A stretch of DNA of 64,000 bases from a virus. The stretch covers positions 1 to 64,000 of the IMG/VR virus record IMGVR_UViG_3300033142_001406; one strand, written 5' to 3'. Position numbers and translations under genes: made by a program. Positions 1-64,000 of the stretch are shown in pieces (position 1 is the stretch's first letter; the number at the start of each line of letters is the position of its first letter). The notes below the pieces were generated by a model. That model saw only the letters and a list, made by a program, of their open reading frames with translations. It did no database searches and had not been told where the DNA came from.

Positions 1-223
1 CGTCGGGAGATATCTCTTCCCAGTAATCAACCGAATTCAAAAACTGAAGTACTTTTTCACTCGTAACTGGTCTTGGCAAAATATAATTACTTAGGCGGTT
101 TACAAGCGCCCCATATTTAAGTTCAGAAAAGCACTTCTCCACGGTGCAAAGCCTCACTGGGCTGAAGCACCTATTGACCCACACTTCCACTTCGTCTTTT
201 AGTTCTCTTCCTAAAGTTGCCAT
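1..223 (-). CDS. Hypothetical protein (C-terminus beyond the window)
   Basis: Open from an ATG at 223 to the window edge, 74 codons seen, no stop reached. The ATG follows a purine-rich Shine-Dalgarno stretch (AGAAGGAGAAGGGAG). The visible part begins MATLGRELKDEVEVW and carries three cysteines (VNRCFSPVRLCTVEKCF). I do not recognise a family. It lies downstream of, and in the same direction as, the next two small genes, so it is probably the next gene of that minus-strand unit. Confidence 0.6.
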   Translation of the reverse strand, partial: MATLGRELKDEVEVWVNRCFSPVRLCTVEKCFSELKYGALVNRLSNYILPRPVTSEKVLQFLNSVDYWEEISPD

Positions 224-319
224 CTTCTCTTCTCCCTTCTCCTTCTCTGTTATCGGGTAAACTACCCTCGAAAAGTCGGGAGAGTTAAACTCCCGGCCTT
301 TAAGCGGTGGGTTATCCCC

Positions 320-586
320 CTACTCCTTATCAATCCAGAAATAGAAACTATAGAGTGATTTGTCAGCTTCTCCGTAAGTTTCGAGGATATAAACAGCACT
401 CTCAAAATCGCCATCCTCAAGATTGGCTGTACTAATATTATTGTCTTCGCAATATTTATAGAGTGTTGCAGGATAATCAACAGCTACCCGTCTATCTATT
501 ATAATTGCGTCCCCAGTGCTGTTGTCGCTGGGGTCGTGGTCGTTCTCGTCTGTCGAAAAACTCAGTCTCTCTGATAACGTTTTCAT
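320..586 (-). CDS. Small acidic hypothetical protein
   Basis: 88 residues, ATG start preceded by an excellent Shine-Dalgarno (AAGGAGGAG, about 7 nt spacing). The sequence is acidic, with an Asp/Asn-rich stretch near residues 12-25 and an aromatic C-terminus (YSFYFWIDKE). It has no transmembrane segment or recognisable motif. It is separated from the upstream gene by about 95 nt that hold a GC-rich hairpin (636-655) without a T tract. No function can be assigned. Confidence 0.65.
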   Translation of the reverse strand: MKTLSERLSFSTDENDHDPSDNSTGDAIIIDRRVAVDYPATLYKYCEDNNISTANLEDGDFESAVYILETYGEADKSLYSFYFWIDKE

Positions 587-680
587 CTTTACTCCTCCTT
601 CTTTTACTTCTTACTATTTACTTTACTTCTCTACTTCGGGGGCTTGCGCCCCCGGTTGGTAGTACTTCTATTTACTTTAC

Positions 681-1004
681 CTACTCTTCTGGCTCTAACT
701 CAAGATCGTAGCAGAGTGCAGCCATCGCCAGTTCACTGCTCAACGTAATACGGTGGTTGATAAGCAGCGCCCCCGCTGCCTCAGATCCCTCTACTATTAT
801 ATAGAGAGGCAGGGCTTCGCCCTGCTGTCTATCCAAACACTCTACTATCTCCCGCAGCCTGAAGGCTGCGTCCTCCTCGTAGTACCAACCAGAGTCAATT
901 TTAAAAGACGGTGTTAAAATAAAGTGAGTGTAACCCGTTCGGGTTAAGATACCTTGCTCCTCTCTATCCAATAGACGTGTAAAATCAGCGTGTTGGTTAA
1001 TCAT
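681..1004 (-). CDS. Hypothetical protein
   Basis: 107 residues, ATG with Shine-Dalgarno AAAGGAGGA about 6 nt upstream. The protein is acidic and soluble, ending LELEPEE, with a predicted mix of helix and strand; no family recognised. It is the first gene after the long noncoding stretch 1005-1764, so its promoter should lie there. Its position suggests it heads the unit that runs off the left edge of the window. Confidence 0.65.
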   Translation of the reverse strand: MINQHADFTRLLDREEQGILTRTGYTHFILTPSFKIDSGWYYEEDAAFRLREIVECLDRQQGEALPLYIIVEGSEAAGALLINHRITLSSELAMAALCYDLELEPEE

Positions 1005-1764
1005 CTTGTCCTCCTTTGGGTCTGTCGTTTGTTAAAGAGCGGTGTTGTCCAACTATATATTGACACAACCGCGCAGTGGTTGCAACCTTGATAGCCCCCA
1101 ACCGCGCGCCTTCTGGCGCGATTAGCGGGATAACCGCGTCAAAATAGACAGATTTGGAGAGGGTCTTATTTCGGGTTAGCTGCTATTTTCAAGCCAAATC
1201 TCCGAAAAGCTCCGCTTTTCAAAGATTAGGTTCAACTGTTTTCTCCTAATAGCTCCCAATTGCGGTGCAATTGATAGAGTCGAATACTGAGAGATAGATC
1301 AAGGGATAGGGAGTGAACAGCCGCACTGGGGTTGAGATTAGACCGCAGGCGGTGGTGAGCGTCAAAAAAATAAGATAGGGGTCAAAGGCTGTAGAGGGGA
1401 CAAAAGCGGGGTATTGTTGAGGATTTGAGGGGATTGGGATTATTGAGGGCTGTGGTTCTCTCTTTAAAAGGTCGGTGTGGCCACTACATATTGTGGTAGG
1501 CAGGCAGGGCACACACTATATAGTGTGGTAGTGTGTGGATCTGGTCCGTATTACCCCGGCTTGACTAATACCGGGGATGGGATCTATAAGGATAACAGTC
1601 AGTTAAGGGATGATAACGTGTATTTAGGGTAAATACGGAAGGCAAGGGGGGGCCTCAAAAAAGGACCCACCAAGGACTTGGAGCGATCCGCTCCCGCTAT
1701 ATAGGAGGACCACAAAGATATTTTCAATTAATCTGATCACTCCTATAACGTACCGTATTTATTA
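1005..1764. other. 760-nt noncoding region rich in inverted repeats
   Basis: No supported gene. It contains several perfect palindromes or hairpins: a 10-bp palindrome GGTTGCAACC at 1078-1087; CGCGCC-TTCT-GGCGCG at 1105-1120; CACACTATATAGTGTG at 1512-1527; and GGAGCG-ATC-CGCTCC at about 1681-1695. CATATTGTGG at 1487-1496 resembles the box found at three promoters elsewhere in the window. On the minus strand, TTGCAA followed after 17 nt by CAATAT, near 1056-1085, is a weak promoter candidate for the gene ending at 681. The region could be regulatory or a replication or packaging site; the sequence does not decide. Confidence 0.5.
1512..1527. promoter_or_regulatory. 16-bp perfect palindrome, candidate operator
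   Basis: CACACTATATAGTGTG is perfectly self-complementary. It sits between related GTGG-containing sequences (CATATTGTGG at 1487 and TGTGGTAGTGTGTGG just after). Palindromes of this size fit a dimeric winged-helix or Xre-type regulator, and many are encoded nearby. The operator role is an inference. Confidence 0.4.
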
Positions 1765-2082: not shown

Positions 2083-2146
2083 CCAGAACCTCCTTTTTTT
2101 TTTATTATTTACAAAATAAATCTAATAGTTTATAGATCTACGTATT

Positions 2147-2728: not shown

Positions 2729-2742
2729 GTGGTTTAGCTTTT

Positions 2743-3005: not shown

Positions 3006-3016
3006 TATAACCCCCT

Positions 3017-3325: not shown

Positions 3326-3326
3326 T

Positions 3327-3916: not shown

Positions 3917-3920
3917 TTAT

Positions 3921-14617: not shown

Positions 14618-16060
14618 ATCGCCTTAGAAAGTATTGATTACAAAATTCTGCCAACCTACGCGAAGATCATAAATGACCCAAATCCTTACATATTTTGTCG
14701 GGGACCAGTTGGAAGCGGCAAGTCTTCCGGGTCAATTTGGCACATCTTTTTGAACGCGATAAACCAAGCTCCAAACGCAAAAGGAGTGCGTCACAGTCGC
14801 TACGCGATAATCAGATCCTCTTATCCAGCACTCAAATCGACAGTTATAAAATCTGTAATTGATTGGTTTGGCCCGATCGTCAAGATCGTTTACGACATAC
14901 CGATTCGAGGTATGATCAAAACACCCCTCCCGGATGGAACTTACGTTGAGTGCGAACTTATATTTCTTTCAACCAGCCTTGATACAGACGTTAAGAAGCT
15001 TCAATCACTTGAATTAACTGGAGCTTTTATCAACGAAACAACTGAAGTCCCTTTTGAGATCTTCAGTATGCTGAAGTCGCGTGTTGACAGATACCCGTCC
15101 CAGCGGGGTGTGGGGACAACCAAGAAATTTATACTTTGCGACTATAACTCTTGCGACACCGACCACTGGCTTTACAGACTCGCAGAAGAGATTAAACCAG
15201 AGAAGCACTCCTTTTACGCCCAACCTCCCGCGCTTTTATTTGACGGGAAAGATTACCGAGTCAACCCCGAAGCAGAGAATATCGAGAACCTCCCAGCAAC
15301 CTACTATACAGATATGGTTTACGGGCAAGATCCAGACTGGGTGAGTGTTTACGTTCTAAATAATTACGGGCAGGTCCGTACCGGACGCCCAGTTTACAAA
15401 GCTTACGCAGACCGGGTTCACTGCTCCCCGGTAGATATATTACCCCTGCGGGGTGTCCCTCTGGTTATCGGCTGCGACGTTGGACTCGACTGTTCGATAG
15501 TAATTACCCAACTTACACCCACCGGACAACTGCTGGTTATTGACGAGGTGAGTTGCGAGAACACATCCATTCTGGAGTTCGCTCACGATATTGTCTGGCC
15601 ACTTTTACGGAACAAATACAGAGAGTTTGAGTACGAGATTATCTGCGACCCAGCAGCAAAATTCAGATCGGCAAACGATAAACAGTCTGCTTTGGATATT
15701 ATGATCCGGGCAGGTTTACCAGTTCGGATCGCGTATACAAACGAGCCTCTGGCGAGGAGGGAAGCAGTAAACTTCTTCCTACGGAAGCAGATAGGAGGAG
15801 TAAGTGGCTTCTCCCTTTCACCACGTTGCAAAGTATTAAGAAAAGGATTTATAAGCGGGTATCGGTACTCAAAGTTGAGTAATTCCAATATGTTCAAAGA
15901 GAAGCCCGAGAAGAATTCTTTCAGTCACCCCCACGACGCTTTACAGTACGCGCTACTAGAATTGAGCAAGGGACGGGTTTTAAGAAAACGCCGACACTCC
16001 AATAGACCAACCTCAGATTTTAAGTATGACGGCACTCCAGCAACCAACGTAGGCTACTAA
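14618..16060 (+). CDS. terL: Terminase large subunit; start codon uncertain (AUC/AUU)
   Basis: About 480 residues. It packages DNA as the ATPase-nuclease motor. Walker A is RGPVGSGKS (codons 14699-14725), Walker B-like GAFINETTE lies near 15030, and the nuclease residues lie in GCDVGLDCSIVI, IDEVS and SHPHDALQYAL. The first canonical start (TTG 14750) lies after Walker A and would destroy the enzyme. The frame is open back to 14603. Candidates are ATC 14618 or ATT 14633. A GTG at 14591 in the same frame has an excellent Shine-Dalgarno (AAGAAGGA, 6 nt) but meets TAA after three codons. I place the start at 14618 provisionally. Confidence 0.85.
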   Translation: MALESIDYKILPTYAKIINDPNPYIFCRGPVGSGKSSGSIWHIFLNAINQAPNAKGVRHSRYAIIRSSYPALKSTVIKSVIDWFGPIVKIVYDIPIRGMIKTPLPDGTYVECELIFLSTSLDTDVKKLQSLELTGAFINETTEVPFEIFSMLKSRVDRYPSQRGVGTTKKFILCDYNSCDTDHWLYRLAEEIKPEKHSFYAQPPALLFDGKDYRVNPEAENIENLPATYYTDMVYGQDPDWVSVYVLNNYGQVRTGRPVYKAYADRVHCSPVDILPLRGVPLVIGCDVGLDCSIVITQLTPTGQLLVIDEVSCENTSILEFAHDIVWPLLRNKYREFEYEIICDPAAKFRSANDKQSALDIMIRAGLPVRIAYTNEPLARREAVNFFLRKQIGGVSGFSLSPRCKVLRKGFISGYRYSKLSNSNMFKEKPEKNSFSHPHDALQYALLELSKGRVLRKRRHSNRPTSDFKYDGTPATNVGY

Positions 16061-41900: not shown

Positions 41901-44537
41901 ACTGTTGTTGGTGAGCACTTAGACGAGATCGGGGTTAAGCTTTCCCCCGAAGAGGACCCCTATAAAGCCCGTCGTATGATCGCAGCCCTTCCTCAGATTA
42001 TGGGCGGCGTGTTCCACGACGGCCTTATTCTGGAAGAGAACGGTTGGGTAGCTTACAAGAAGGAGCAGGACCCGGAAGAGGGTGAACTCCGGGGAGGAGT
42101 TCTTTCCGTCTTCGAGGCGCTGGGTGATTCAGCACCCGCGTTTAAGCTTCACTATCTCGCTAACTCAGCTCAGTTCCTTTTTGACAACAAGGAGGTGTCG
42201 ATTGGTAAGAAGCTGTTTGGTGTTGATCCAGAAACTCCCGAAATCTTTAGCGATTCTGCTGGTAAGATGGTACCTAACTATCTTGATACTCAGACTGTTA
42301 TTGACGAGCTGCGGGAAGCGACAAAGGAAGAGTGGGACGCGAACAAAGACCTCTGGAAGTCGGCTGAAGATAGGCTGCAAGAGATAAACGATTCAGTACT
42401 CCAGTTCGCGGTTGATACTGGAGTGATTAAAGCAAGCTCAGTTCCCCAGTGGAAGAGGGAGTTCTATTTACCCTTCAACCGGATGGCTGAAGACTTCCTT
42501 GGGGATGCCTATAAATCAATCATTCCCCGCTCAAAGGGTAACACCGTAGGCGGTATCAAACACTTAAAAGGATCGAAGATGTCAATCGGAGATCCTATCG
42601 AGAATCTACTTACAAACTACACCTATATAGTAAACGAGGGGATAAAGAACCAAGCCAACACCAAACTCTATAAAGCTTTGGAAAAGGCTAAAATTAAAAA
42701 CGATCAAGGGCAAGAAGTGAGTGTCTTTGAGGTTAGGAAAGTCGGCAAACCAGAGAATATAAGAGTTAGAGCTGGGGAGGTAAACAGAGGCTTAAACAGT
42801 TTACTCACCAGTATGGGATTTGACCCCAGCAAGCTCCCGAAGGGTACCCGAGATTTTTACGTTGATATGGTGAATATGGTGAGTCCTATCAACGAGGACG
42901 GGGTATTTTCTATTAAAGAGAAGGGAGTCTCAAAGTTTATCAAGACCAACGATCCCCACTTGTTTGAGGTATTGGCTGACGTAAATAACGAGGCTATTAC
43001 AGCCAGCTTTATTAAGATGCTATCGGCCCCTAAACGTCTGTTAACACTGGGAATTACAGTGAATCCCGCCTTCAGAATTGCTAACTTACTGAGGGATGTT
43101 ATCCACTCAAAGATTATCTCCCCCAACTTCAAAATAAGTGGAGTGGCGAAGGCTCTCCGGGACGTTTGGAACGAGCACCCGGAGTATCTTGAGATGAGAG
43201 GGATAGGTGGTGCTTTCAGCGGGGGCTGGCACACCCAAGATGCTGGAAAGACTATTGATTCTGTTATCAATAAGGGGAAAGGAGATAAAGGAAAGGGTGT
43301 CCTCTTAAGTATGTGGGATGCTTGGGAGAAGGTTGGAGAGGCAGCAGAGAACGCCTCCAGACTTGCTCTTTATCGGGAAAACTTAGCAGACGGTAAGTCA
43401 AAGTTTGCGTCTGCTTTCGAGTCGCGTGACTTGATGGACTTCAGCAATCGTGGACGCGGCGCTTTGGCTCAACATCTTATTGCGCTTGTCCCCTTTCTCA
43501 ACGCCCACGCTCAAGGGCAGTACAAATTTGCTCGGGCAATCAGTGAAGAGGAGACCCAAGAACACGTTATTAATACCGGGTTGCTGCTGACCGTCTTAGC
43601 ATCCACTTTGTTGGCAATCAACAGAACTGGTAACGAGGATGAGTGGGAGGAGCTTGAGACCCACGAAAAGTGGCAATACCTCCACTTCTTCGGAACGGAG
43701 AAACACTACCGGGTACCGCTTCCTTTTGAAGTGGGGCTGCTGTTCGGAACGGTTATCCCGGCTACGCTGGATATGGTCTTAGACGCTAAGGACGAGCCTC
43801 TTGGCGAGGCTATCTGGGATTATACGAAGTTTCTTGGACAAGCCTCCTTCGGTATTTCACTTGTTCCGCAAGCATTCAAACCAGCAGCCGAAGTCTACAA
43901 CAACAAGAATTACTTTACTGGTAGACCTATTGTCAACCCCAGTATGGAAAGAAAGGATGAAGTAGATCACTACGATCAGTACACCAGCGACACGTCCCGG
44001 ATTGTTGCGAAGGCAATTGAGGGGCTTTCGGAAGTCTCTCCAAAGAATATAGATCACCTTGTCAACGGATATTTCGGCTTTGCCGGAAGATTTGGGCTAC
44101 TGGCCCTCGACGGAATCCTCAAGCCTTTCAGTGACTTCCCGGTTGAGCCAGCCGCCAGATCGGAGCACCACTGGTTGACCGGGGTGATACTCGGGTCCGG
44201 CAGATTTCGAAGAGACAAGAACCCGAAGCATACTAAGTATGAGACTGCTTATTACGAGCTTGTAAACGAAGTAGATCAAGTTATCAACTCCCTCAACGGG
44301 TATAAGAGCAGCAGAGATTACGAGACGTATAAGAAGTATATGAGCGAGCACCGCGAGGAGTACCTCAACCACAACAAGCTGAAATTATTTACCAAACAAA
44401 TACGGAAGCTGAATACCAGAAGGAAGATTATAGCTAAGAACCAGAAGTTATCCCCGGCAGAGCGCCGGAAGCAGCTCGACGAAGTATTCAAGAAGCGAAC
44501 GGAGGTATTCAAGCAAGCTCTTGAAAGGATAAGATAA
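35976..44537 (+). CDS. Giant internal virion protein with HEXXH peptidase and LPD38-like domains
   Basis: 2853 residues, ATG. In order: a hydrophobic Gly/Ala segment (residues about 145-170); a Lys/Glu/Gln-rich coiled region (about 360-1000), including a stretch coded by the GTAA-type microsatellite; strand-rich regions; a zincin-like peptidase with HEIQH (His1788, Glu1789, His1792) and a later ENRAYF acid (Glu1831); and a C-terminal part with LGITVNPAFRIANLLRDVIH and GRGALAQHLIALVPFLNAHA typical of large polyvalent protein domain LPD38. It is probably ejected into the host, with peptidase action on the envelope or on itself. Not truncated. Confidence 0.7.
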   Translation: MDQKDLIINLARRNNFDLERALNDGHSYEDILAYLQEESGVTGERPEGDPGFIGGVKDFGLGIARGALVSLPQKVGQTFQRWDDEGGDDTLRDLGISLEETGDENLQEQPWLQESRLSIEKRQESPWNIRGWGYSAGDSLITSLAPAAVGAAAVVAGAPAAVGVGIGVVTVGALFYGSEAEQTYRRALPELGHEEALELSRLTGLIEAGGEIVADLIPLWFFKALPSPARKNILKALTSKKGVRGIIWDIIKVEALEVSTEIGQSTAQGLAEERFGMGDQPLLDNALAVIGPTLIVGGLYGTAGSVGGNARRSWMVETLKDPKAPIEDKRKIIAEITEAVTKKDAELGAAFSKQATALAEAKKPVLIGEDSKYESKKETKQESKKEREIVSKPEAEIERETDVQRGALDTNFIADPNDSLQVQNQKRIRGIVGPEAKGSTTFEDTLSDGSERPGVTPSQFNKGLSEEVLKNHFEAVGKQKEGEASRNQSMLIKRFNYTLNRFKQLVKYKDTYAYSLQEIGDQYEQALQSTNLRDLSSTRDLFTRLQSQEQKITEVDQQLIKAAEDLLSLGGETKSVDQQTLARIQKEINPETLKQQAERRQQLINDAQERGNKVLQEAEYKNSPEYAKEVDKERQQQEADQIKKRQAETKQAAEAKKKKDEHTKAIDDLYEKTKKRLSESPVFLRNEDLSKQILNAIHTERLGAAEIERVIRQAELNRLEESGTLQSITEMIEDKQSPGKKDKGAIARGVVQQDKDKAQAAKTRAADKKTQEKADEVTEQERLGAAAIKRRDLKGRLKDKYGTKRQRKKDVEAAVKEKQEQDQKVEELGDEKGSTPKKPKKKQTPPPKKKSALRVKLDDKKKKKEEPKPKPPKKKKATPVEKKVVTPRVTPPKKKTVTDAAKKEAAAEKKREAAAKKYQANKKKREADVDENNRLVQKGKELIPTIRLEDAREVGEMGELLEKGEITPDEWDSFVERMFKENRAKGKINEALGDPKRKKAPPKDPHAKLFNKKKTIEVSGHTFTAPKYNSTQGEWYTETEGRRFVLRKSPPEDAIARQWFVREFDSNNPSTTRGEQLVPDNTKKASLQFVVDEYLTDKPKDPTEGGNTPKGKRPIKDVKTILKKKKDLPDKDNRFKKTTKEENSTAEGQKGMFDIAQATGPLRGMVAAIEKAGGISPVSLKEIDNISSEKELDDLRETLRVAYNKSLKKPESKPSKKKRKKDERTSEEILLNKGIAALNKVGKAQKEELLGKVDAEIKLLETSDVYYEKELVISLDNSPTSFTFYRENFYKKTNKDGSKETVKVTMLDALKEFKKKLTATSFNADSPYKKPPVQNTTSVTAHIEKRAYKKKTQKPIPPKGKYIQPIYQDGFYSNRQYLVKMDDAPSVGKLPYATGKINMESILSTTGLEEVTLGKEYLDTRLIHDPESPIAAHDAESVIHVEFEDGDLKHYIYKTTYINAILTEHPKATPKLHPPTGMLKFFDGSEEIVGITMPVGNNLKVGSTTGLIPAIKEELGIDPTDPAHMAEFDRMRATEFKLNKIYKKTGVRYLAGLPRGTWYDPAGKEIIGKQISELTNLSHAEVEGIESLGKLSMKLGGRSDKYSPLQVAEALYNAGMSGNKGFARIPRKKRTFITNGDDVFEIRDSGWGNPLVFPVVSAGHFTLSDEQILSIQTEYKEKDQQTFTIPDNPDVSFTTGQKTNQNPISETQIKQAFKGQSVILTGKKTYSVRFQNGRGATIKIVDQTPEGSVLIEAKGGVLNRNGQLIAGKQYGTTIELVEGVATEDVLTHEIQHLLERIGVVTPADVKVLDKAVIRASKRNKLAYELHSDPRENRAYFIQQLIRERKDGRGTVTGRVVQKIKDFFSKLAKSIFGIESASNIARELESGEIFKREAIKQQELPISTEQPLYSTVNGFDHLKIKSTATKAIRNTNMGKKSLWDNIKDTKDFILGDIKGNAKRGKNHFVEQYLDRYKYLKTVVGEHLDEIGVKLSPEEDPYKARRMIAALPQIMGGVFHDGLILEENGWVAYKKEQDPEEGELRGGVLSVFEALGDSAPAFKLHYLANSAQFLFDNKEVSIGKKLFGVDPETPEIFSDSAGKMVPNYLDTQTVIDELREATKEEWDANKDLWKSAEDRLQEINDSVLQFAVDTGVIKASSVPQWKREFYLPFNRMAEDFLGDAYKSIIPRSKGNTVGGIKHLKGSKMSIGDPIENLLTNYTYIVNEGIKNQANTKLYKALEKAKIKNDQGQEVSVFEVRKVGKPENIRVRAGEVNRGLNSLLTSMGFDPSKLPKGTRDFYVDMVNMVSPINEDGVFSIKEKGVSKFIKTNDPHLFEVLADVNNEAITASFIKMLSAPKRLLTLGITVNPAFRIANLLRDVIHSKIISPNFKISGVAKALRDVWNEHPEYLEMRGIGGAFSGGWHTQDAGKTIDSVINKGKGDKGKGVLLSMWDAWEKVGEAAENASRLALYRENLADGKSKFASAFESRDLMDFSNRGRGALAQHLIALVPFLNAHAQGQYKFARAISEEETQEHVINTGLLLTVLASTLLAINRTGNEDEWEELETHEKWQYLHFFGTEKHYRVPLPFEVGLLFGTVIPATLDMVLDAKDEPLGEAIWDYTKFLGQASFGISLVPQAFKPAAEVYNNKNYFTGRPIVNPSMERKDEVDHYDQYTSDTSRIVAKAIEGLSEVSPKNIDHLVNGYFGFAGRFGLLALDGILKPFSDFPVEPAARSEHHWLTGVILGSGRFRRDKNPKHTKYETAYYELVNEVDQVINSLNGYKSSRDYETYKKYMSEHREEYLNHNKLKLFTKQIRKLNTRRKIIAKNQKLSPAERRKQLDEVFKKRTEVFKQALERIR

Positions 44538-44839: not shown

Positions 44840-45355
44840 TCAAGACGATTTCCAGCCGATAGTTCTCATTCGGTGTTCGTCGTTTGTAAGTTGATCCTCG
44901 TTGACGACAGCGGTTGGTCCCAATACTGGGAGACACCTCCGCTTGTTTACTACTGCGGTTGATCTGGCAGTACCAGCGTAGCTTACCAGAAATACTGCCT
45001 CCAAATATCCCCTAAAAAGCAGCTCCTCTATATAGTTTTTCACCGAGCCGTAAGGAATATGTTTGTTATATTGCTCACTTACACCCAGATCCTTCACTTT
45101 AAAAGGGCGGGTGTGGTAGATCTGCCAAAGTAAGAAGTACTGTTTTTCGGTGAGATCGCCGGGGCACTTCTCGGGGCAGAACCCCGGAGTTGCGCCCTCC
45201 ACCGCGCCCTGCAACACTTCCCTTGCCCTATCCGCGACATCTTTTCTGGACTCCTTAGTCACTACCTCCTCCAATCTTTTTCGCGCCTCTACGGTTCGCA
45301 AGTCGTCCCGGTCCTCTCTGCCCACTTTTGTTGATTGTGCTCGGGATAATACCAT
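44840..45355 (-). CDS. ParA partner, predicted winged-helix DNA-binding protein (ParB-like role)
   Basis: 171 residues from ATG 45355, which has GGAGGA 5 nt upstream inside the end of parA; the frame overlaps parA by 101 nt. Charged helical N-terminus (DDLRTVEARKRLEEVVTKES), then LTEKQYFLLWQIYHTRPFKV and YGSVKNYIEELLFRGYLEAV, which read as a winged-helix unit. Cysteines in CPEKCPG are of unknown use. Small DNA-binding proteins directly after parA usually bind the centromere; that role is inferred from context because the sequence is not ParB. Confidence 0.55.
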   Translation of the reverse strand: MVLSRAQSTKVGREDRDDLRTVEARKRLEEVVTKESRKDVADRAREVLQGAVEGATPGFCPEKCPGDLTEKQYFLLWQIYHTRPFKVKDLGVSEQYNKHIPYGSVKNYIEELLFRGYLEAVFLVSYAGTARSTAVVNKRRCLPVLGPTAVVNEDQLTNDEHRMRTIGWKSS

Positions 45356-46154
45356 ATTCGTCCTCCAGTAATTTAATAAATTCAGTTGCCAAATCTCTAA
45401 ACGCTTGAGTTCCTTTAGAATTTCTCCCAAACTCAAAGATACTTGATTTTCCGTTATACTCTGAGTCCTCGAAGCCAGCACACTTCGGAATAAGAGAATC
45501 AAACACCACAGCTTCTCCGAATCGGTCGTTCAGCTTCGCGATATTAGCTTTGTGAACAGTCCGCCGTAGATCCACTCTGTTTACTACTATCCGCAATAGC
45601 TTAAGCGTATCGTTCCCCGTATCTTGTACCGCGCTCATCAACTTCAGAACTCCACTCACTCCTTTAAGGGAGTTGGCTGATCCAGCCAACATCGGAATCA
45701 CAACGCAATCAGCAGCGTACAGAGCGTTAGAAACGCTGATTCCGAGTGTCGGTGAGCAATCAATTAAAGTAACGTCGAAATTATCCCTTGCAAAATCCCT
45801 AACCTGCTGTTTTAAATAGAAATTGCTGTTCGGATATTGCAAAGCTATCGGGACCTCAAGTCCGGTAGTTTCGGTCACGTTCGGGAGTATTTTGATATTG
45901 TTGTGGATTGTATTGTAAATACAATCTTCAATCGGGGGCTTCCTTAACTGATCCGGGTCAAGTAACTCATACAGACAATTATTAATTTCCTTGTCCGGGT
46001 CGCGCATAAGCGCGTCCGTAGAATCTGCTTGCGGATCGTTGTCAACCACCAACACTTTCAACCCTCGTCTCGCCAGAGCTGACGAAAGATTGATCGACGT
46101 CATACTTTTTCCCGTCCCCCCCTTATAATTCGCGATAGCGCATATTATTCCCAC
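45255..46154 (-). CDS. parA: ParA-family partition ATPase
   Basis: 299 residues from GTG 46154, which has AAGGAGGA 6 nt upstream. Deviant Walker A KGGTGKSMT with Lys11 and Lys16; VVDNDPQADST, then LIDCSPTLGISVSNALYAAD (Walker B region) and VVIPMLAG. These identify a ParA/Soj-type ATPase that segregates DNA with a DNA-binding partner. There is no N-terminal HTH, so it is of the short type. Its promoter overlaps a 17-bp palindrome. ParA in a phage indicates plasmid-like maintenance or positioning of DNA in lysogens. Confidence 0.88.
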   Translation of the reverse strand: MGIICAIANYKGGTGKSMTSINLSSALARRGLKVLVVDNDPQADSTDALMRDPDKEINNCLYELLDPDQLRKPPIEDCIYNTIHNNIKILPNVTETTGLEVPIALQYPNSNFYLKQQVRDFARDNFDVTLIDCSPTLGISVSNALYAADCVVIPMLAGSANSLKGVSGVLKLMSAVQDTGNDTLKLLRIVVNRVDLRRTVHKANIAKLNDRFGEAVVFDSLIPKCAGFEDSEYNGKSSIFEFGRNSKGTQAFRDLATEFIKLLEDEYGIIPSTINKSGQRGPGRLANRRGAKKIGGGSD

Positions 46155-49289: not shown

Positions 49290-49805
49290 TTATCTCCCCC
49301 ACTTTACGTAATTGTAATAATCTTCAATAACTCTCTCTGGATCTGCCGATCCTTGGTAAGTGTTGTAGTATTTCTTGTAATACTGAGCTAAACCCTTGAT
49401 ATCTCTCTCATCCGGGAGTGCTTCCGGCACTCTCCAATAGTGAACCCTCGCCAGTGCTACTTGGTAAGCCAGATTCACTCTTAACTGCCAGAGAAACTTA
49501 TTCTCGTATGCTGGGTACTGCTCTGACTCAAATTTAGTATTTGGGATAAATTGTAATATCTTATCTGCGATTGCTGGTTTTCTGTTTAAGTAATTAATCC
49601 AGATATCTTCGGCTGTATCTGGTTCGATCTGAACTACACCGACGGCGGGACCACGAACTTGCTCAAGATAGTAACCGCCCTTGGATTCGTGGGCTATCGT
49701 CATAATAAGCAGTTCAATTGCAGCCTCAGAATACGGTATTTCTGGTTCAAGAAGAGTTAGTACGTCAGAGACTAACATCCTCATATCTTTCTGATTAATC
49801 GACAC
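49290..49805 (-). CDS. Lysozyme/transglycosylase-like endolysin
   Basis: 171 residues from GTG 49805, which has GGGAGGAGA 6 nt upstream and overlaps the nrdG stop. IELLIMTIAHESKGGYYLEQ gives a catalytic-type Glu in AHESKGG; GPAVGVVQIEPDTAEDIW and LAYQVALARVHYWRVPEALP follow, the pattern of phage lysozyme-like (soluble transglycosylase fold) proteins, then YYKKYYNTYQGSADPERVI. There is no signal peptide, so it would need the holin to reach the wall. Cell-wall hydrolysis inferred. Confidence 0.65.
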   Translation of the reverse strand: MSINQKDMRMLVSDVLTLLEPEIPYSEAAIELLIMTIAHESKGGYYLEQVRGPAVGVVQIEPDTAEDIWINYLNRKPAIADKILQFIPNTKFESEQYPAYENKFLWQLRVNLAYQVALARVHYWRVPEALPDERDIKGLAQYYKKYYNTYQGSADPERVIEDYYNYVKWGR

Positions 49806-50292
49806 TTGCTTCTCCTCCCGCCCACAACTGCGAGGCTGGGATAACTGTCTGATTTCGAGAGGCGAGTCTGATACCTTGAACGCTATAAGAATTATCAGAA
49901 GCTTCAGAAAATACATACCGCCCCAGCTTAATATAAGTTGCGAATTCTTTTAAGGTTTCCAGATGCTTAGGCATCTGGTCTATCTCGAATTGTTCGTACT
50001 TGGTAAAAACAATAATCGGAAGTTTGTACTGGGAGAGTGACCGTAGCAACAACCGCAGCGGAAGAGGCTTCTGATCGAGCGGCTCTCCCCCCAGCACCCA
50101 GATCTGTTCTACTTCTCCATACTTTATATTGGATGCTACCCTCCGCAGCATCTCGTTACTGATTGGCTTCCCCGCCTTGAAATCGTGAAGTTCTGGATTG
50201 TGGCAATAGGCACAATACGGAGCTTCGCAACCAGAGAGGTATATCTCAAGAGATTTAGTTGTCAGTGAGTATTGCAATCCTCCGTAATTCAT
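49795..50292 (-). CDS. nrdG: Anaerobic ribonucleotide reductase activating protein
   Basis: 165 residues, ATG. Radical-SAM cysteines Cys22, Cys27 and Cys30 in SGCEAPYCAYC; the first spacing (C-x4-C) is one longer than the usual C-x3-C. It is followed by VLGGEPLDQKP (the GGE SAM-binding motif). It activates NrdD by generating the glycyl radical with an iron-sulphur cluster and SAM. It follows nrdD by 2 nt in the same direction. Confidence 0.85.
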   Translation of the reverse strand: MNYGGLQYSLTTKSLEIYLSGCEAPYCAYCHNPELHDFKAGKPISNEMLRRVASNIKYGEVEQIWVLGGEPLDQKPLPLRLLLRSLSQYKLPIIVFTKYEQFEIDQMPKHLETLKEFATYIKLGRYVFSEASDNSYSVQGIRLASRNQTVIPASQLWAGGEASVD

Positions 50293-50294
50293 AT

Positions 50295-52280
50295 CTAAGA
50301 TACCCCCTTATAGAATTGACGATTAGGATAATCCTTTTCTCGACGGACCGCCGCCCAGTGCTTTGTATTTGTTAAGAAACCAACTATTCTCGTAAAATTA
50401 TTTATAATCGGGGACTTGCAAATATTGCAAGTGTCTTTCCTCCCGACGGTCATATGACCGTTCTCACATTCTTGGAGATTGTAGTTCACAGCCCAATAAA
50501 TCACTCCCCGTTTTGCAGCCATTCTGATAAGCTTTTCCATATCCTCAACGTCTTCAATTCTCTCTTCGACGTTGACGTGACAGATTGCACCTCCCGAGAA
50601 CATCCCGTCGAATTTCCCTTGTATTTCAAGACGTTCAAGCAACGTAGCCTCCGCTTGCAGCGGAATAAACTGATTGCTATAAAAGGGCAGATTGGCTTTG
50701 TTAAACCCAAGATATTTGTCCTTAGTTGCCAGCTTGATTGCTGAACTTTCGGCTGGTACTTGCTCGATATTGTGAGGCGTTTTGTGCCTCTTCTGAGCAA
50801 TCTTAGATACAAGGTCTAAGGCCCGTATGATACGTTCTGCGACGTTCTGACCAGTTTCTGATACTATACTATGCCCCAGCAGCTCAACGGCCTCGTATAG
50901 CCCCGTTATTCCTATCGTTGAGTATTGTTTACTCAACTCCATATAACCAAGATCATACAACGGGAGTGCTCCCCGAGCGATCCTATCAGCGAGAATGGAA
51001 CGCTTCGCAGCGTTAATCTTGACCGCTTTCCCGGCAACCAGACAGATTTCGTGGATAACTGCTGGGAAGTCGTTGGGATTTGTTCTGAGTGTTTCCTCAA
51101 CCAACCGGGGAAGGTTGATAGTACAAACTCCTAAACTTCCGATCTTTGTACTTCCAGATCCAAAGCTGTTAAAATACTCGTTTCGAGTGTCGGATCTCAA
51201 GCGACAACAAGAACTTAGCGTACTTGACTTACCACAGTAGATATTGATAAACCCGTATTTTTTGTTCTCTTCAGCAATCAGCTTGAGGAAGCCTTCGTCT
51301 TGAATTTCACCCTCGTCGTTAACGGTGAAGCAAGCCGTTGTTACCGGGAAAGTGATTGGGGCGCGGCGTAACTCTTCATTCATAACTTCCAAATAAACAC
51401 GTTGTAAATTTTCTACTGTAGTAAACGTGGGGATAGCGCCGTCTTTAAATTTATAATCTTTTACGAGTGATTCCAAGAAGTTATCGTCAAAGACGCTGAT
51501 ATTAACGAACGGACTTTCAGCACCCCTCATAGGGAAGTTGAAACCGTAGATTAGGGAAGTTAAAGTCTCTCTTACGTAAGTCCAAACATCCTCTTCAGTA
51601 TTCCCAACCACGATATTCCCATCCCGGAATATCGCGTACTCGAATACTTCACAATCTTCTTTAAAATCTCTGAACGATACAAACTGCTCTATATCGTTAA
51701 ATTCTAATATCTTATCAATATAGTAAGCCATACAAATCAGCAGGTCAGCGAGTCCGGTGGCCCCAGCGGTACTCTGGGAGGCGTTGACAACGAACTGCTC
51801 AATCTGGCTCTTAAAAGTAAAGAGCGATTTGGGGGGCAAAGAGCGCACCTTTGCGCCCATCTGAAGTCCTCCAAGCGCAATATCGTAGCAGCTATAGTTA
51901 AAGCAGTAAGGCTTCGCAAGAGAGTGGAAGTCGTTGATATAAATTCTTCCAACAAGCTGATCTTCTAATATCTGGTTTGCGGTTTGGAGATCGTAAAGAT
52001 CCCGCAACTCTTGCCAGAGGAGAAAGTATGAATTGTAACGCTGAAAGGGCTTAGAAGCCTCGTAATTATAGGCAATTACGTCTTTTGTAGCAACGTTGCT
52101 GTTGCTGTCCACCGAAGCGTCGGCGGTGGTTGTTTTGTTTTTGAAAAACTCCTTCGCGAATAAATTCTGGTCTAATTGCTTTCCTATCCCGTCGATATCA
52201 AACAGTTCTTTTCCGTACTTGCTCCACAAGTACATCATAACTGTATCGAAGTCTGAGTCGTAACCAACTTTAATAAACAC
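50295..52280 (-). CDS. nrdD: Anaerobic (class III) ribonucleoside-triphosphate reductase
   Basis: 661 residues from GTG 52280 with GGAGG upstream; the open frame extends further but overlaps the upstream gene. It reduces NTPs to dNTPs through a glycyl radical. The C-terminal RIVGFL holds the radical Gly (about residue 634) and the zinc site is CENGH...CNICKS just before it. Internal landmarks include GAESPFVNISVFDDNF and SCCRLRSD. No aerobic nrdA/B is visible in the window, so the phage appears to depend on the oxygen-sensitive enzyme. Confidence 0.9.
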   Translation of the reverse strand: MFIKVGYDSDFDTVMMYLWSKYGKELFDIDGIGKQLDQNLFAKEFFKNKTTTADASVDSNSNVATKDVIAYNYEASKPFQRYNSYFLLWQELRDLYDLQTANQILEDQLVGRIYINDFHSLAKPYCFNYSCYDIALGGLQMGAKVRSLPPKSLFTFKSQIEQFVVNASQSTAGATGLADLLICMAYYIDKILEFNDIEQFVSFRDFKEDCEVFEYAIFRDGNIVVGNTEEDVWTYVRETLTSLIYGFNFPMRGAESPFVNISVFDDNFLESLVKDYKFKDGAIPTFTTVENLQRVYLEVMNEELRRAPITFPVTTACFTVNDEGEIQDEGFLKLIAEENKKYGFINIYCGKSSTLSSCCRLRSDTRNEYFNSFGSGSTKIGSLGVCTINLPRLVEETLRTNPNDFPAVIHEICLVAGKAVKINAAKRSILADRIARGALPLYDLGYMELSKQYSTIGITGLYEAVELLGHSIVSETGQNVAERIIRALDLVSKIAQKRHKTPHNIEQVPAESSAIKLATKDKYLGFNKANLPFYSNQFIPLQAEATLLERLEIQGKFDGMFSGGAICHVNVEERIEDVEDMEKLIRMAAKRGVIYWAVNYNLQECENGHMTVGRKDTCNICKSPIINNFTRIVGFLTNTKHWAAVRREKDYPNRQFYKGVS

Positions 52281-52455: not shown

Positions 52456-52886
52456 CCCGTTACCCCCGTACAACCCCAACCGCCGTCTCCCCGGTCGGTT
52501 GCCCAAAGAGTATCTACTTCGACAAATTCAGCCCGGATAACCGGGGCAATCACCCCTTGGGCGATTCTATCGCCGGGGGAGATTCTCCACACCCGCTTAG
52601 AATTATTTCTAATAATTAGAGTAACTTCTCCGGTGTAACCAGAGTCGATTGTTGCTGGAGAGTTGACAAGGTAGTTGGGAAAGTCTTTTGAAAGACCGCT
52701 ACGCTGCCGGATCTGGAGTTCAAACCCAAACGGAATCCCGAAGGATAACCCGGTCCCGAATACCCCGTAGTGACCGGGCTGGATCTTCTTTCCGACCAAC
52801 GATCTAAGATCAAAGCCAGCATCCCCAACGTGCTTGTACGTTGGGAGCACTGCGTCGTGGTTAACTTTGCTTATCTCGATACGCAC
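52452..52886 (-). CDS. dut: dUTPase
   Basis: 144 residues, GTG with GGAGA upstream. All five motifs of trimeric dUTPases occur in order: GDAGFDLRS, IRQRSGLS, TIDSGYTGEV, GDRIAQG and RGDGGWGCTG. It hydrolyses dUTP to dUMP, supplying thymidylate precursors and keeping uracil out of phage DNA. Its neighbours are nrdD and the nuclease genes. Confidence 0.92.
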   Translation of the reverse strand: MRIEISKVNHDAVLPTYKHVGDAGFDLRSLVGKKIQPGHYGVFGTGLSFGIPFGFELQIRQRSGLSKDFPNYLVNSPATIDSGYTGEVTLIIRNNSKRVWRISPGDRIAQGVIAPVIRAEFVEVDTLWATDRGDGGWGCTGVTG

Positions 52887-53343
52887 TGTGATTAGCTCTC
52901 CTTTTTTGAGGTTTCAACCAGCTTTTTGGCATCCGACTATAGGCCCAGATTATATTGTGTTTTGTGGCCCACTCTCCGTATGTCGTATTAGATCCTTTGT
53001 TGATCGGGTTGTTTGGCCGCTCAAAGATCAGCCTAAAATCAACGTCGGGATATTGGGTTTTAATTGCTAATATCTTCTGCCGTCCATCTATTGTAAGTCG
53101 TCCTTTATACTCGATAATCAGCACCGACCCGTCGTCGCGAGTAACCCGGAAGTCTGGAAGGTAAGTTCTAATTTTAGGTTGCCACCTCATCCGGGCATCC
53201 TTCGGTTCGTACTCCCAAGTTGTCCCCAGCTTGGAAAGCTGGGCTGCAAGAAGAGACTCCCCTTCAGACCGGAACTGATTAACTCCGTCGCTGTATGACT
53301 TTCTTTTTTTCTTACCCTTCCTCTTTCTTAGTCTCTTGACCAA
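52861..53343 (-). CDS. T7-type endonuclease I (Holliday-junction resolvase)
   Basis: 160 residues, TTG with AAGGAGG 7 nt upstream. A basic N-terminal tail is followed by FRSEGESLLAAQL, TWEYEP, YLPDFRV (Asp), VLIIEYKGRLT (Glu and Lys), PDVDFRLIFERPNNPINKGS and TTYGEWATKHNI, as in phage T7 gp3. It resolves branched DNA and degrades host DNA. Overlaps the dUTPase start by 26 nt. Confidence 0.88.
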   Translation of the reverse strand: MVKRLRKRKGKKKRKSYSDGVNQFRSEGESLLAAQLSKLGTTWEYEPKDARMRWQPKIRTYLPDFRVTRDDGSVLIIEYKGRLTIDGRQKILAIKTQYPDVDFRLIFERPNNPINKGSNTTYGEWATKHNIIWAYSRMPKSWLKPQKRRANHSAYRDKQS

Positions 53344-53776
53344 TATTCGCCTCCTTGATTAACTCGAATTGATATTTTGGTATATCTATCAAGGGCTTAT
53401 CCTTATCTCCCCGCTTCTTGAATCCACCCATCCGACGCTCAAACTCCAGATCGTCGTTGATCGGAACGGAGATAACAGACCCGCACCGCCACCCGGAAAC
53501 GTAGTATGCTGGTACTTTATCCAGCTTTGACAAGGCCAGCATATAATCGTATTTGCTTTCGTCCAGATAGACAGTCTCAAGTTTCGAAAGGATATAACTC
53601 CTTGATTTAACTTCAATATATCCGACAAGGTGTTTATTGAACTCAATAAAGAAGTCTACCCGGTGCCACTGAGGAAACTGGTGGAGGATGTGACCGTCGT
53701 GGGTTGACTCCCAGACTTGCTTAAGATACTGTTCTGACTCCCAATCCTTATAAGTAAATATATCTTTTACCACCAC
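53312..53776 (-). CDS. PD-(D/E)XK nuclease-like protein
   Basis: About 154 residues if it starts at GTG 53776 or 53773, close to GGCGAGGAG; a TTG at 53809 would add 11 residues overlapping the exonuclease. WHRVDFFIEFNKHLVGYIEVKSRSY has the Asp and Glu-x-Lys of a PD-(D/E)XK core, with helices and strands around it. The second half (VSGWRCGSVISVPINDDLEF) is unassigned. Role in DNA processing inferred from the fold and neighbours. Confidence 0.6.
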   Translation of the reverse strand: MVVKDIFTYKDWESEQYLKQVWESTHDGHILHQFPQWHRVDFFIEFNKHLVGYIEVKSRSYILSKLETVYLDESKYDYMLALSKLDKVPAYYVSGWRCGSVISVPINDDLEFERRMGGFKKRGDKDKPLIDIPKYQFELIKEANIGQETKKEEG

Positions 53777-55971: not shown

Positions 55972-56048
55972 TGGAAGACCAGATAGGAGTCGAACCTATA
56001 TCACCCTGCGTCAAAGGCAGGTGCTCCACCGGATTGAGCTACTGGCCT
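55972..56048 (-). tRNA. tRNA-Gln (anticodon UUG)
   Basis: 77 nt with encoded CCA. Acceptor AGGCCAG pairs with CTGGTCT (one G-T). D-arm stem GCTC/GAGC; anticodon stem CCTGC/GCAGG around loop CTTTGAC, anticodon TTG (reads CAA); T-arm ATAGG-TTCGACT-CCTAT. Its 5' end overlaps the polA stop (TAG): the A and G of the stop are the first tRNA bases. It must be cut from the polA transcript by RNase P and a 3' nuclease. It may supply Gln-CAA, which is common in the Gln-rich virion genes. Confidence 0.92.
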
Positions 56049-57921
56049 ACGCTGATATTTTCTCTATCTCCCCATAGTTAGGACCCGCTTCCGCGTCCCC
56101 AGCCAACCGGACGTTGAAATCGCAACCGAAGTATCGGCTGATATAGAGAGGGAGTTTACGGAACACATCCAGACAGATCTTAGCTACTGGCTGCACCTCT
56201 TCGTTAGGACAATCCAGAACTAACGAATCGTGGACTTGACAGATAACCAAAGAGGTAAACTCCCCTTTTTTAAGCTCTTTTCGGATCAACAGCATCGCCA
56301 AACAAACAATATCGCCGCTGGCGAACCCTTGGACCGGATAGTTCTTGATCTGGTTTTCCGAATAGTTCCCCCGAAGATCCCGTTTGAATCTTAGGATGCG
56401 ACCAGAGGGGAGCTTAAGATATCCGTTTTCCTCAACAAATTTGATATTTCGATTCTGCCATTCCTTAATTTTAGAATACTTTTGATAGAAGCGGTCTATC
56501 GCGATCTGCCACGCTTTACGCGATAATTTGGGCATATTGGGATCGTCAAAGAAGCCTTGAGCTGTCCGACCGTAAATCAAACCAAACAGCAAAGCTTTTG
56601 CTGCATCCCGAAACTTCGCGTCCCCAAAAAACTTAATCGCGTTATCGGTGTGAGCGTCCAGACCGTCAGCGATCTCTTTTATTGCAGTCCAATCTTGCGC
56701 AAAAAAGGCAACAACTCTCCACTCGATCTGAGAGAGATCGACGTTAAGGATCTGGTCGTAGCGAGGAAGGAAAAGCCTCTTAACCGGGGCTGTACGGCTC
56801 TTCGGCAAGTTCTGCCCGTTGGGGTTTGAAGAAGAAAATCGGCCAGTATTTGTTGCTGTATTATTAAAGGAAGGGTGGATAATTCCGTTAACAGATTTCT
56901 TTGGGAGACCGACAAAATAAGTCCCCCGTTGTTTCTCAAGCTTGGATCTCTCTTGTAATAATTTGAGTACCCGCTTTTGCCTCTTGTCTTTTGTTTTGAG
57001 CTTTGCGAGGACGTTCTTATTTACAAAATAGTACCCGTCTTTCTTGGTTTGGGACCGGGGGAGGGGGCTGATCCCCAACCCCTCGATTCGGGTTGGTGTG
57101 ATACACTTTCTTTCGTATTGCTTTATCCGACCACCTTTTAATTCTCTTTCAACAGTCTCCGTTCCTTCCCGCTTTATAACACCGCCGTAAAGCCCCGCAG
57201 ACAGCTCGTCGTCAGAGTTTAAGCGGATATCGAAACCAAACAACCCGATTAGTTCGGAGTCAATATCCGCTATTTTCTCTGCATACTCAGCCGCATACTC
57301 TGCGGCCAGCGCGGAGTCAAACCTCATCCCGTTCGTTTCCACGTCGGCAAGCATACCGACGATCCCACAGTGGAGCCGGACAACTTTAGACAGTCCCTCC
57401 TTTCTTATCTGTCCCCGTTGTCTCTGATAAATAGCCAGTGTGTTGATACAATCTTGCTCTAAATAAGGATTAAGAACGGACAGAGGTATCTCGTCCGTCT
57501 CATACCCGCTGTCCCAATAAGTTTTAACAAGATCAATTTTATCTGGAATTCCGTATCGTTTGGACAGATAGTCCAGCGACGGGTATTTTATTTGCTGGCC
57601 GGATAGAATATATTCTGCCGTCGAAGTGCAGAATACTTTTGAGTCGGGACAGACCAGCCCGACCGAGCTTAACCAGTACAGATCAAACTTAAAATTGTGG
57701 CCGCAGACAAGCGCTGCGTTGTCAATCTCCTTTTGTATTTCAGCAAGTTTAACGTTGTCGGGAACAAGGCTGCTATCGACCTCTGAGTGATTAAACACCC
57801 ACACTTGGGTAGTTCCATCCTCTCTCGCTACCCCAATTGAAACGAGAAAAGAATCGTCTAACCAAGGAAGATGATTAGGTTTTTTAGAAGTCTCTACGTC
57901 CAGCCCTATACAGTATGTCAA
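56047..57921 (-). CDS. polA: DNA polymerase I (family A) with 3'-5' exonuclease domain
   Basis: 624 residues, TTG with AAAAAGGA upstream. 3'-5' exonuclease domain at the N-terminus with Asp8 and Glu10 (LDVETS) and HNFKFD; no 5' nuclease. Polymerase motifs: DLSQIEWRVVAFFAQ (A), RDAAKALLFGLIYGR (B) and VHDSLVLD (C). Replicates the phage genome with the primase and helicase genes directly upstream. The stop codon overlaps the tRNA. Confidence 0.92.
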   Translation of the reverse strand: MTYCIGLDVETSKKPNHLPWLDDSFLVSIGVAREDGTTQVWVFNHSEVDSSLVPDNVKLAEIQKEIDNAALVCGHNFKFDLYWLSSVGLVCPDSKVFCTSTAEYILSGQQIKYPSLDYLSKRYGIPDKIDLVKTYWDSGYETDEIPLSVLNPYLEQDCINTLAIYQRQRGQIRKEGLSKVVRLHCGIVGMLADVETNGMRFDSALAAEYAAEYAEKIADIDSELIGLFGFDIRLNSDDELSAGLYGGVIKREGTETVERELKGGRIKQYERKCITPTRIEGLGISPLPRSQTKKDGYYFVNKNVLAKLKTKDKRQKRVLKLLQERSKLEKQRGTYFVGLPKKSVNGIIHPSFNNTATNTGRFSSSNPNGQNLPKSRTAPVKRLFLPRYDQILNVDLSQIEWRVVAFFAQDWTAIKEIADGLDAHTDNAIKFFGDAKFRDAAKALLFGLIYGRTAQGFFDDPNMPKLSRKAWQIAIDRFYQKYSKIKEWQNRNIKFVEENGYLKLPSGRILRFKRDLRGNYSENQIKNYPVQGFASGDIVCLAMLLIRKELKKGEFTSLVICQVHDSLVLDCPNEEVQPVAKICLDVFRKLPLYISRYFGCDFNVRLAGDAEAGPNYGEIEKISA

Positions 57922-62449: not shown

Positions 62450-62632
62450 TTATTCTCCCTTTTTATAGACTTCTCCCTCAAATTCGGGGATAACACCTTG
62501 TTTTAGTACAGCCTTTAGTTCCGGGATATCTTCGGTCCCGAGACAGAGTTTACCGACGTTTTTACCACCGATAAAAACTGTCGTTAACGTGTGTTCCGGG
62601 TTTGACGCGTCAAACCTTAGTTTTATTTTCAA
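62450..62632 (-). CDS. Small hypothetical protein
   Basis: 60 residues, ATG. Strand-rich (KIKLRFDASNPEHTLTTVFI, GKNVGKLCLGTEDI) with a short helix. Possibly a small beta protein; no family seen. Tight spacing to both neighbours suggests co-translation. Confidence 0.55.
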   Translation of the reverse strand: MKIKLRFDASNPEHTLTTVFIGGKNVGKLCLGTEDIPELKAVLKQGVIPEFEGEVYKKGE

Positions 62633-62633
62633 A

Positions 62634-63053
62634 TTACCCTCTTATCCACTTGTTTTTAAACAGTTTTGGGTTTCTGATTTTCTTTGCTCGTCTGAGTTTG
62701 CCAACCGATTGTATGGCTTGCCAGTGACCAATTTCAGCAATCGCCCAACTGGAATACTTAAATATTAGATCTCTGTCCCCAATTGAGACAAGCGTTTCAA
62801 AAGGCTTGCCGTCGTTACAGATCCCCAAAGGGAGAAACACTGTTGAAATAAAACCAAATTCACCCCCAACCCGGATTCTGGTTCGCCCGATAAACCGCCA
62901 AGAGGGACACTCTTTTTCGTTTTGCCCCCCCTCTTCTGCAAATATAGTAAACAGACTCTTCCCGAAATTACCGGAAATATCAAAGTCAACCGGAGTTACA
63001 CTTTTATCCCGGTGCAATTTAAAATAGCGTGGCCTATAATCAAACATACTCAT
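62634..63053 (-). CDS. Hypothetical protein
   Basis: 139 residues from ATG 63053 with GGGAAAGG upstream. SGNFGKSLFTIFAEEGGQNE, FIGRTRIRVGGEFGFISTVF, GDRDLIFKYSSWAIAEIGHW and a basic end (KLRRAKKIRNPKLFKNKW). Similar sequences occur in phages; function unknown. Confidence 0.55.
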   Translation of the reverse strand: MSMFDYRPRYFKLHRDKSVTPVDFDISGNFGKSLFTIFAEEGGQNEKECPSWRFIGRTRIRVGGEFGFISTVFLPLGICNDGKPFETLVSIGDRDLIFKYSSWAIAEIGHWQAIQSVGKLRRAKKIRNPKLFKNKWIRG

Positions 63054-63054
63054 A

Positions 63055-63195
63055 TTATACCTTTCCCATCTCAACCCTCTGTTTATTCAGCTTTTTAAGT
63101 GCGCGACCCCACCGCCCTCGGCGGCTTATCCAAAAGCCGCCGAAAAACGTTATAACTGATATTAATATTGTTTTAACTATCAAATTACAAATCAT
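63055..63195 (-). CDS. Small membrane protein, 46 residues
   Basis: ATG 63195 to TAA 63055, below the usual ORF length limit. MICNLIVKTILISVITFFGG forms one hydrophobic helix with a basic C-terminal part (RRGRWGRALKKLNKQRVEMG). Its start overlaps the upstream stop by 11 nt and its stop is one base before the next ATG. GAGG lies just before the ATG, closer than normal. Probably a single-pass protein. Confidence 0.5.
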   Translation of the reverse strand: MICNLIVKTILISVITFFGGFWISRRGRWGRALKKLNKQRVEMGKV

Positions 63196-64000
63196 ACCTC
63201 ACTATATAAATTTTATTACCTTTTACTGCCGTTGTCGGCCCAACCCAACAAGCCGCAACGTCAATTACTTTGCCAATATTGTCCCCGAATCTTTCGTGGC
63301 GTAGGACACGCTTGTGCCGCCGCCGTTCGTGGGGACTCTTGAGAGTCACTTTTTGGGAGTGTGTCCCTTCTCCCTCCGTTAGATCGTAAGTTTTTCTGAT
63401 CTGATCGGGAGTAAGCAGCGTAAATTCCGAGCGCTGGTGCGCTCTTGGGATCTTCTTTGACGTAAAGGGGTCAATCACTTTTTTGGGTCTTTCTTCCACT
63501 ACAAAGTGTTTAGTTGATCCCAAAAAAAGGAAAACCGCAAGTCTGCTCATAATTGATTTTGTTATTATCTCTCTATATTCGTCTATAAATTGATCACCTT
63601 CCTTTATCGGCACACCTCCTTTCTGGTCTTGAAATAAGATCGTCTTCGCCGGGATGTCCAAATCCGCAAACAACTCTAAATTATTAAATACTTGTATACG
63701 TTTTATATTGAAAAAAACACTGTGTTTATCACCCTCAAGTACGCCCGCCGCAAGTGTTGTTAGATTACCTTTTTCCGGGAAACCAACGGGGGCTACTTCT
63801 CCGTTTTTTGGTGGGGAAAAAGGCTCGTAAGTGCTAACAAAACGAGGACTTGAGAATCCTATCTGATTATTGAGAGTGTCCCCGATTAAACAAACGGAAT
63901 CTTCAATTTCAACGGTACACTCGGTAAAAGGGAGTGTGAAAGTTGACAACAGTTCTTCCGGCGTTTCAGCTATATTTCTGTCGTCAAGTGGTAGAGAGTC
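63185..64000 (-). CDS. Hypothetical phage protein (N-terminus beyond the window)
   Basis: At least 271 residues. The frame is open through the window edge (TTG 63949 is only an internal codon). Visible: ELLSTFTLPFTECTVEIEDS, VCLIGDTLNNQIGFSSPRFV, and a C-terminal basic region (SPHERRRHKRVLRHERFGDN). Proteins with this PF..C.VE opening occur widely in phages with no assigned role. Confidence 0.6.
   Translation of the reverse strand, partial: DSLPLDDRNIAETPEELLSTFTLPFTECTVEIEDSVCLIGDTLNNQIGFSSPRFVSTYEPFSPPKNGEVAPVGFPEKGNLTTLAAGVLEGDKHSVFFNIKRIQVFNNLELFADLDIPAKTILFQDQKGGVPIKEGDQFIDEYREIITKSIMSRLAVFLFLGSTKHFVVEERPKKVIDPFTSKKIPRAHQRSEFTLLTPDQIRKTYDLTEGEGTHSQKVTLKSPHERRRHKRVLRHERFGDNIGKVIDVAACWVGPTTAVKGNKIYIVRYDL

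Follow-up and report, generated by a model that had tools for sequence, protein, structure and literature searches.

IMGVR_UViG_3300033142_001406 is a viral record of 68,137 bases from a podovirus-like phage, of which positions 1-64,000 (the window) were analysed here as one stretch. The subject of the analysis is the disappearance of the tetranucleotide CATG, together with many other short words, from this genome. The following genes were assigned in the window:

14750..16060, plus strand: terminase large subunit (phrog_2, E-value 2.3e-17; 48-55% to the relatives G001 and G004)
19850..21835, plus strand: portal / head-tail adaptor (phrog_332, E-value 4.3e-46)
22969..24123, plus strand: major capsid protein (phrog_1357, E-value 1.4e-59)
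26491..28098, plus strand: internal virion protein (phrog_511, E-value 6.8e-129)
28095..32093, plus strand: tail fibre / tail protein (phrog_496, phrog_2589)
35976..44537, plus strand: open reading frame of 2,853 amino acids, conserved in relatives (29-32%)
45255..46154, minus strand: ParA-like partition ATPase (51.5% to a Desulforapulum autotrophicum plasmid protein)
46302..47387, plus strand: tyrosine integrase (PF00589)
49795..52280, minus strand: anaerobic ribonucleotide reductase, NrdG and NrdD (nearest phage homologue in Desulfovibrio phage ProddE, 47.6%)
52861..53343, minus strand: T7-type endonuclease I, a Holliday resolvase (PF05367, E-value 6.4e-25)
53312..53773, minus strand: PDDEXK_14 putative phage endonuclease (PF24579)
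56047..57921, minus strand: DNA polymerase A, used for phage placement (PF00476)

CATG was reported in the first-pass annotation, made from the letters alone, to be practically absent from the 64 kb, with about 240 copies expected from base composition. The window indeed holds 0 copies, as do the other 4,137 bases of the record, while the expectation computes to 244 from base composition and to ~151 from dinucleotides. Each 8-kb bin lacks CATG, in agreement with the claim that the avoidance spans all gene modules, and GATC, CCGG and GGCC are as common as had been stated (311, 248 and 98 copies, respectively). Under a null model in which proteins and codon usage are preserved for 30 genes, ~118 occurrences of the four CATGN words are expected, and none was found. 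The maximal-order Markov expectation for CATG is merely 18.7, because CAT and ATG are themselves depleted (the trinucleotide ATG/CAT occurs at 0.25 of the composition expectation), and the event is therefore far broader than the loss of CATG. The original observation is thus confirmed and enlarged.

Several words lie far below a composition-aware expectation, as in phage restriction-site avoidance (observed/expected: CATG 0/151, CTAG 16/265, GRGCYC 0/55, RCCGGY 2/46). The statement that palindromes are not generally lost did not survive counting, since exactly zero copies are found for 21 of the 107 testable palindromes, some 25 palindromes of six bases are absent or nearly so and CTAG is rare. 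The degenerate words GRGCYC and RCCGGY have gone as whole units, which points to real recognition sites. GRGCYC is also missing (0 of 61 expected) from Desulfovibrio phage ProddE (MZ666938), in which CATG is normal.

The avoided words also include CAGG/CCTG (60/415), AATG/CATT (49/529) and YKATG (63/405). CATA, CATC and CATT had been described as frequent near misses; CATA and CATC survive chiefly before C or T, and the description fails for CATT, of which only 26 copies remain on the plus strand, the surviving AATG/CATT being nearly all CATTC. According to the codon-preserving null, CATTA (0/63), CATTG (0/63) and CATTT (2/70) are lost and CATTC is partly spared (26/67); likewise CCTGA (1/70), CCTGG (1/54) and CCTGT (4/66) are nearly gone and CCTGC is partly retained (27/67). 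CATAR and CATCR are low under the same null, CATAC and CATCC stand at 1.23, and CAAG/CTTG is not avoided (CAAGN 0.97-1.46). Whatever the mismatch, the 3' flank acts in the same way, with A or G being worst, T intermediate and C rescuing the word.

The loss is uniform along the genome, across codon positions and on both strands. HAATG is found in 2 of 203 expected copies in sense and in 0 of 171 in antisense orientation, HCAGG in 5 of 179 and 2 of 125, and this equal loss from coding and non-coding strands indicates that the target is DNA. Cutting of RNA by an mRNA interferase is thereby ruled out. A purge of ATG as an unwanted start codon is excluded on the same grounds and by GTATG and GGATG, which occur at or above expectation. 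ATG starts are in fact retained, nearly all of them preceded by AT, GT, AG, GG or GA, contexts that are tolerated by the avoidance matrix described below. The proteins carry the trace of the process: methionine makes up about 1.1% of residues (at aligned positions 0.7-1.2% versus 2.1-3.0% in relatives), with mostly Leu, Ile and Val as substitutes, and histidine codons in 24 genes comprise 180 CAC and 18 CAT. Selection on DNA words has thus been strong enough to swap about half of the methionines of the proteome. A context-dependent mutation bias acting without selection would also produce a loss spread evenly over the genome, its two strands and the codon positions. However, the possible mutation products go many ways, CACG/CGTG, which a simple transition would yield, is itself scarce (0.58) whereas CAAG is high, exact zeros face 151-265 expected copies, and several unrelated six-base palindromes are zero simultaneously, all of which makes this explanation highly implausible.

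The avoidance was modelled by pseudo-likelihood, using a dinucleotide background and one position-weight avoidance matrix. Fits with a symmetric start stayed at a palindromic optimum, and a perturbed start led to an asymmetric optimum. The best-fit consensus is the non-palindromic 5'-RCATGRR-3', read on both strands, and mismatches are tolerated to graded extents (nat penalties: base preceding the core, C -1.1, T -0.7; within the core, C>A -4.2, A>C -3.4, T>C -3.9, G>T -2.2, G>A -2.8, G>C -3.4; after the core, first base T -1.5, C -3.5, second base T -1.2, C -0.8). The gain over background is 5,650 nats for the asymmetric matrix, 4,941 for nine hard motifs, 4,678 for a palindromic matrix and 298 for CATG alone; with each third of the genome left out in turn, the held-out gains are 5,549, 4,895, 4,628 and 297 nats, respectively, which places the palindromic matrix ~920 held-out nats below the asymmetric one. 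Each genome third fitted alone returned the same matrix (one third in reverse orientation). Sites scoring >2 number 112 in the real sequence versus 1,451 +/- 36 in simulated genomes, and sites scoring >5 number 0 versus 164; the genome has shed well over a thousand words that are near relatives of CATG. The mild mismatches would fit protein contacts rather than base pairing: they are G>T and the two swaps C>A and A>C, in which the amino group in the major groove is preserved.

These fits bear on the proposal that the host lineage has long carried a CATG-specific restriction system of the NlaIII type. Long-standing selection at the level of DNA stands and fits restriction pressure; the simple CATG-specific enzyme does not. 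NlaIII/HpyI-type restriction-modification shares with the present case the exact zero of the palindrome, but its imprint would be limited to CATG and spare the one-mismatch words, whereas here AATG and CCTG are purged as well (0.09 and 0.14 of expectation), the flank dependence is asymmetric and the avoided set is far wider. A strict CATG enzyme as the sole cause is ruled out by these neighbours and by the far better fit of the matrix.

Alternatively, several strict and unrelated host systems with sites that share ATG or CAGG (e.g. CATG, CATTD, CATNR and CCTGD) could sum to an apparently graded matrix. The clade evidently meets many systems together, with 21 zero palindromes in this phage and 33 in its relative G004, and the union of nine hard motifs accounts for most of the likelihood. 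Nonetheless, a single additive matrix is ahead of the nine fitted motifs by ~650 held-out nats, the flank order A/G, T, C repeats behind CATT, CATA, CATC, CACG and CCTG, and to our knowledge CCTGD and CATTD are not among the described recognition forms. We therefore consider a sum of strict systems unlikely.

About 40 other phage and metagenome-assembled genome (MAG) contigs in which a four-base palindrome is nearly or fully lost served as controls, and their one-mismatch neighbours mostly remain at 0.4-1.6 of expectation; the exception is L015, a locus of the relative G006, in which all zero words contain GCG. GATC-free marine podophages (e.g. L058, L022 and L032) likewise lack a four-base palindrome (0 of 57-63 expected), but differ in that one-mismatch neighbours are near normal (0.5-1.6) and off-consensus penalties amount to 5-12. 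Matrix fits on the pooled GATC-free phages and on the GCG-free relative gave penalties of ~5 to 14 per core mismatch, i.e. no graded shell. A CATG-poor contig of a Tidjanibacter MAG (L165) has CATG at 1/102, yet spares the neighbours (AATG 0.94, CCTG 0.68). This contig resembles a strict CATG system. Helicobacter phage KHP30 proved unsuitable as a CATG-avoiding control: it contains 75 CATG and its fit gave no CATG motif.

Relatives of the phage were identified through DNA polymerase, which ties it to ~10 IMG/VR loci at 39-47% identity, and in these relatives the counts of RCATGRR-like sites (score >1) are near expectation. Their own avoided words are different. The 69-kb genome of G004 (IMGVR_UViG_3300009488_000019, loci L173-L176) has CTAG, CGCG, CCWGG, GGWCC, CGWCG, RGATCY, SAGCTS and more at zero, amounting to at least 15 palindromic recognition words, some of them degenerate, and to 33 of 111 testable palindromes. 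G006 (IMGVR_UViG_3300017971_000460, loci L177-L179 and L015; 41,227 bases, 49% GC) has 0 GCG/CGC versus 1,213 expected by composition; the portal-bearing fragments L208, L209 and L212 also lack GCG, and L206/L207 are depleted. G003 and G001 each have their own set of avoided words, and G007 is nearly free of avoidance. The sets of forbidden words thus appear to turn over among related phages, as expected if the defences of their hosts differ. A literature search with limited terms returned no paper on trinucleotide-level loss in phages, and this is a virus clade in which entire three- and four-letter words disappear.

Apart from restriction, no well-known force clears phage genomes of numerous palindromes simultaneously. 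Selection by sequence-specific cutting of DNA, mostly by host restriction, is the explanation that we favour, with a confidence somewhat above even; its CATG part would stem from a single recogniser of relaxed, asymmetric specificity and not from a strict NlaIII-type enzyme. The lineage of this phage would have lived under lasting sequence-specific cutting and lost the target words genome-wide in response. The lost palindromes (CTAG, GRGCYC, RCCGGY, GGATCC and others) would reflect several type II restriction systems of the host, an imprint of the usual sort, whereas the CATG part would be the peak of one graded asymmetric matrix, with C>A, A>C, T>C and any replacement of G being tolerated at a flank-dependent cost. 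The likeliest agent may be a single restriction-type endonuclease or nickase with relaxed specificity, of which the near-cognate cutting would itself be harmful enough to be selected against. We infer a nuclease as the agent, encoded by the host, and place this host tentatively among the Desulfobacterota.

Restriction-site avoidance as such is of a known kind; its graded, non-palindromic form is new. A published survey found that type II words are lost from dsDNA phages, with exclusion (ratio <0.1) in 3.9% of phage-site pairs, none for type I/IIG systems and few for type III (PMC6286503). Several of the zero palindromes seen here fit this picture fully, but the present phage departs from it in that its strongest signal, a graded matrix covering near-cognate words too, is not palindromic, an unusual imprint given that survey. 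A further likeness is to promiscuous (star) restriction by KpnI, which cuts near-cognate sites too, with a benefit for the host having been proposed (Vasu et al. 2012, ref 22 in PMC3834813). Such an enzyme would select against near-cognate words, and a graded order of avoidance among them, with energies stable across genome thirds, is what we observe; however, KpnI is palindromic whereas the matrix here is asymmetric, and in vivo promiscuity would have to be assumed in our case.

Several points weigh against this explanation. The searches turned up neither a host genome nor an enzyme or a methyltransferase; the survey saw no general avoidance of type I/IIG sites and few type III cases, and reported weaker avoidance in temperate phages (PMC6286503), while the present phage carries an integrase. 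Moreover, so loose a host nuclease would require the DNA of the host to be protected with matching looseness, and since the background comprises dinucleotides only, composition could account for some of the fine structure in the flanks.

The agent could instead be encoded by the phage, as a sequence-specific endonuclease that destroys host DNA while the phage genome is immune through the absence of sites. The PDDEXK_14 protein is the sole visible candidate for a phage-encoded recogniser: its gene is present here and was found in no relative out of seven (some are fragments), none of the seven avoids the motif, and no methyltransferase was seen. The neighbouring T7-type endonuclease I is also carried by relatives that do not avoid CATG. 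Self-immunity through missing sites would account for the very tight purging, and Chlorella viruses have enzymes that recognise CATG or very short sites. However, host systems better match the many other lost words and the way the sets differ among relatives, PDDEXK_14 proteins may be nucleases of ordinary recombination, and the link between this gene and the avoidance is based on one genome, so that we regard a phage-encoded agent as improbable.

Sequence-specific DNA damage by something other than a nuclease (a restriction glycosylase, for which see PMC10273834, or a DarT-like DNA ADP-ribosyltransferase), or a DNA-binding protein, is a further candidate to which we attach little weight. The motifs that restriction glycosylases and DarT-type systems recognise are short and asymmetric, and their recognition is partly relaxed. 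On the other hand, no gene of this kind was seen.

More tentatively, and with considerable doubt, we speculate that the hosts of the clade possess a DNA-targeting defence or phage weapon of a class not described so far. Its targets would be very short, asymmetric and loosely read, it would shape whole viral proteomes, and the RCATGRR matrix and the GCG loss of G006 would represent two of its specificities. In broader terms, phage genomes log what their hosts can cut, and here the log is fine enough to read a base-by-base energy matrix of an unseen recogniser. The matrix implies a cutting order for near-cognate sites, so that the importance of star cutting in nature becomes testable, and the same analysis is applicable to metagenomic phages for finding further defence specificities.

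As to the host, the similarities of ParA to the Desulforapulum autotrophicum plasmid protein (51.5%) and of NrdG/NrdD to phage ProddE (47.6%) hint at one of the Desulfobacterota, and the host bacteria are probably anaerobic and sulfate-reducing. A search for prophages in GTDB genomes with the DNA polymerase yielded only matches of a very general kind (24-30% identity). Matches to clustered regularly interspaced short palindromic repeat (CRISPR) spacer-like DNA in 155 genomes were just weak or of low complexity, with no repeats around the three that were checked. Of 395 Desulfobacterota genomes, none had a match to the ICEA/NlaIII family (PF05315) in a search run without a positive control. Distant prophage-like relatives of the internal virion protein (28-37%) lie in four of 395 Desulfobacterota genomes, a further hint to the host phylum; CATG is normal there.

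The integrase gene suggests a temperate potential, and its position beside the ParA ATPase (45255-47387) would be compatible with a plasmid-like prophage state. Positions 1765-10452 (minus strand) and 60611-61054 contain a tandem array of small paralogous proteins, several of which match MarR-like winged-helix or "transcriptional regulator" families. Finally, a low-complexity intergenic tract of GTAAGTAAGAGA-like repeats (14477-14579) lies immediately upstream of the terminase gene.

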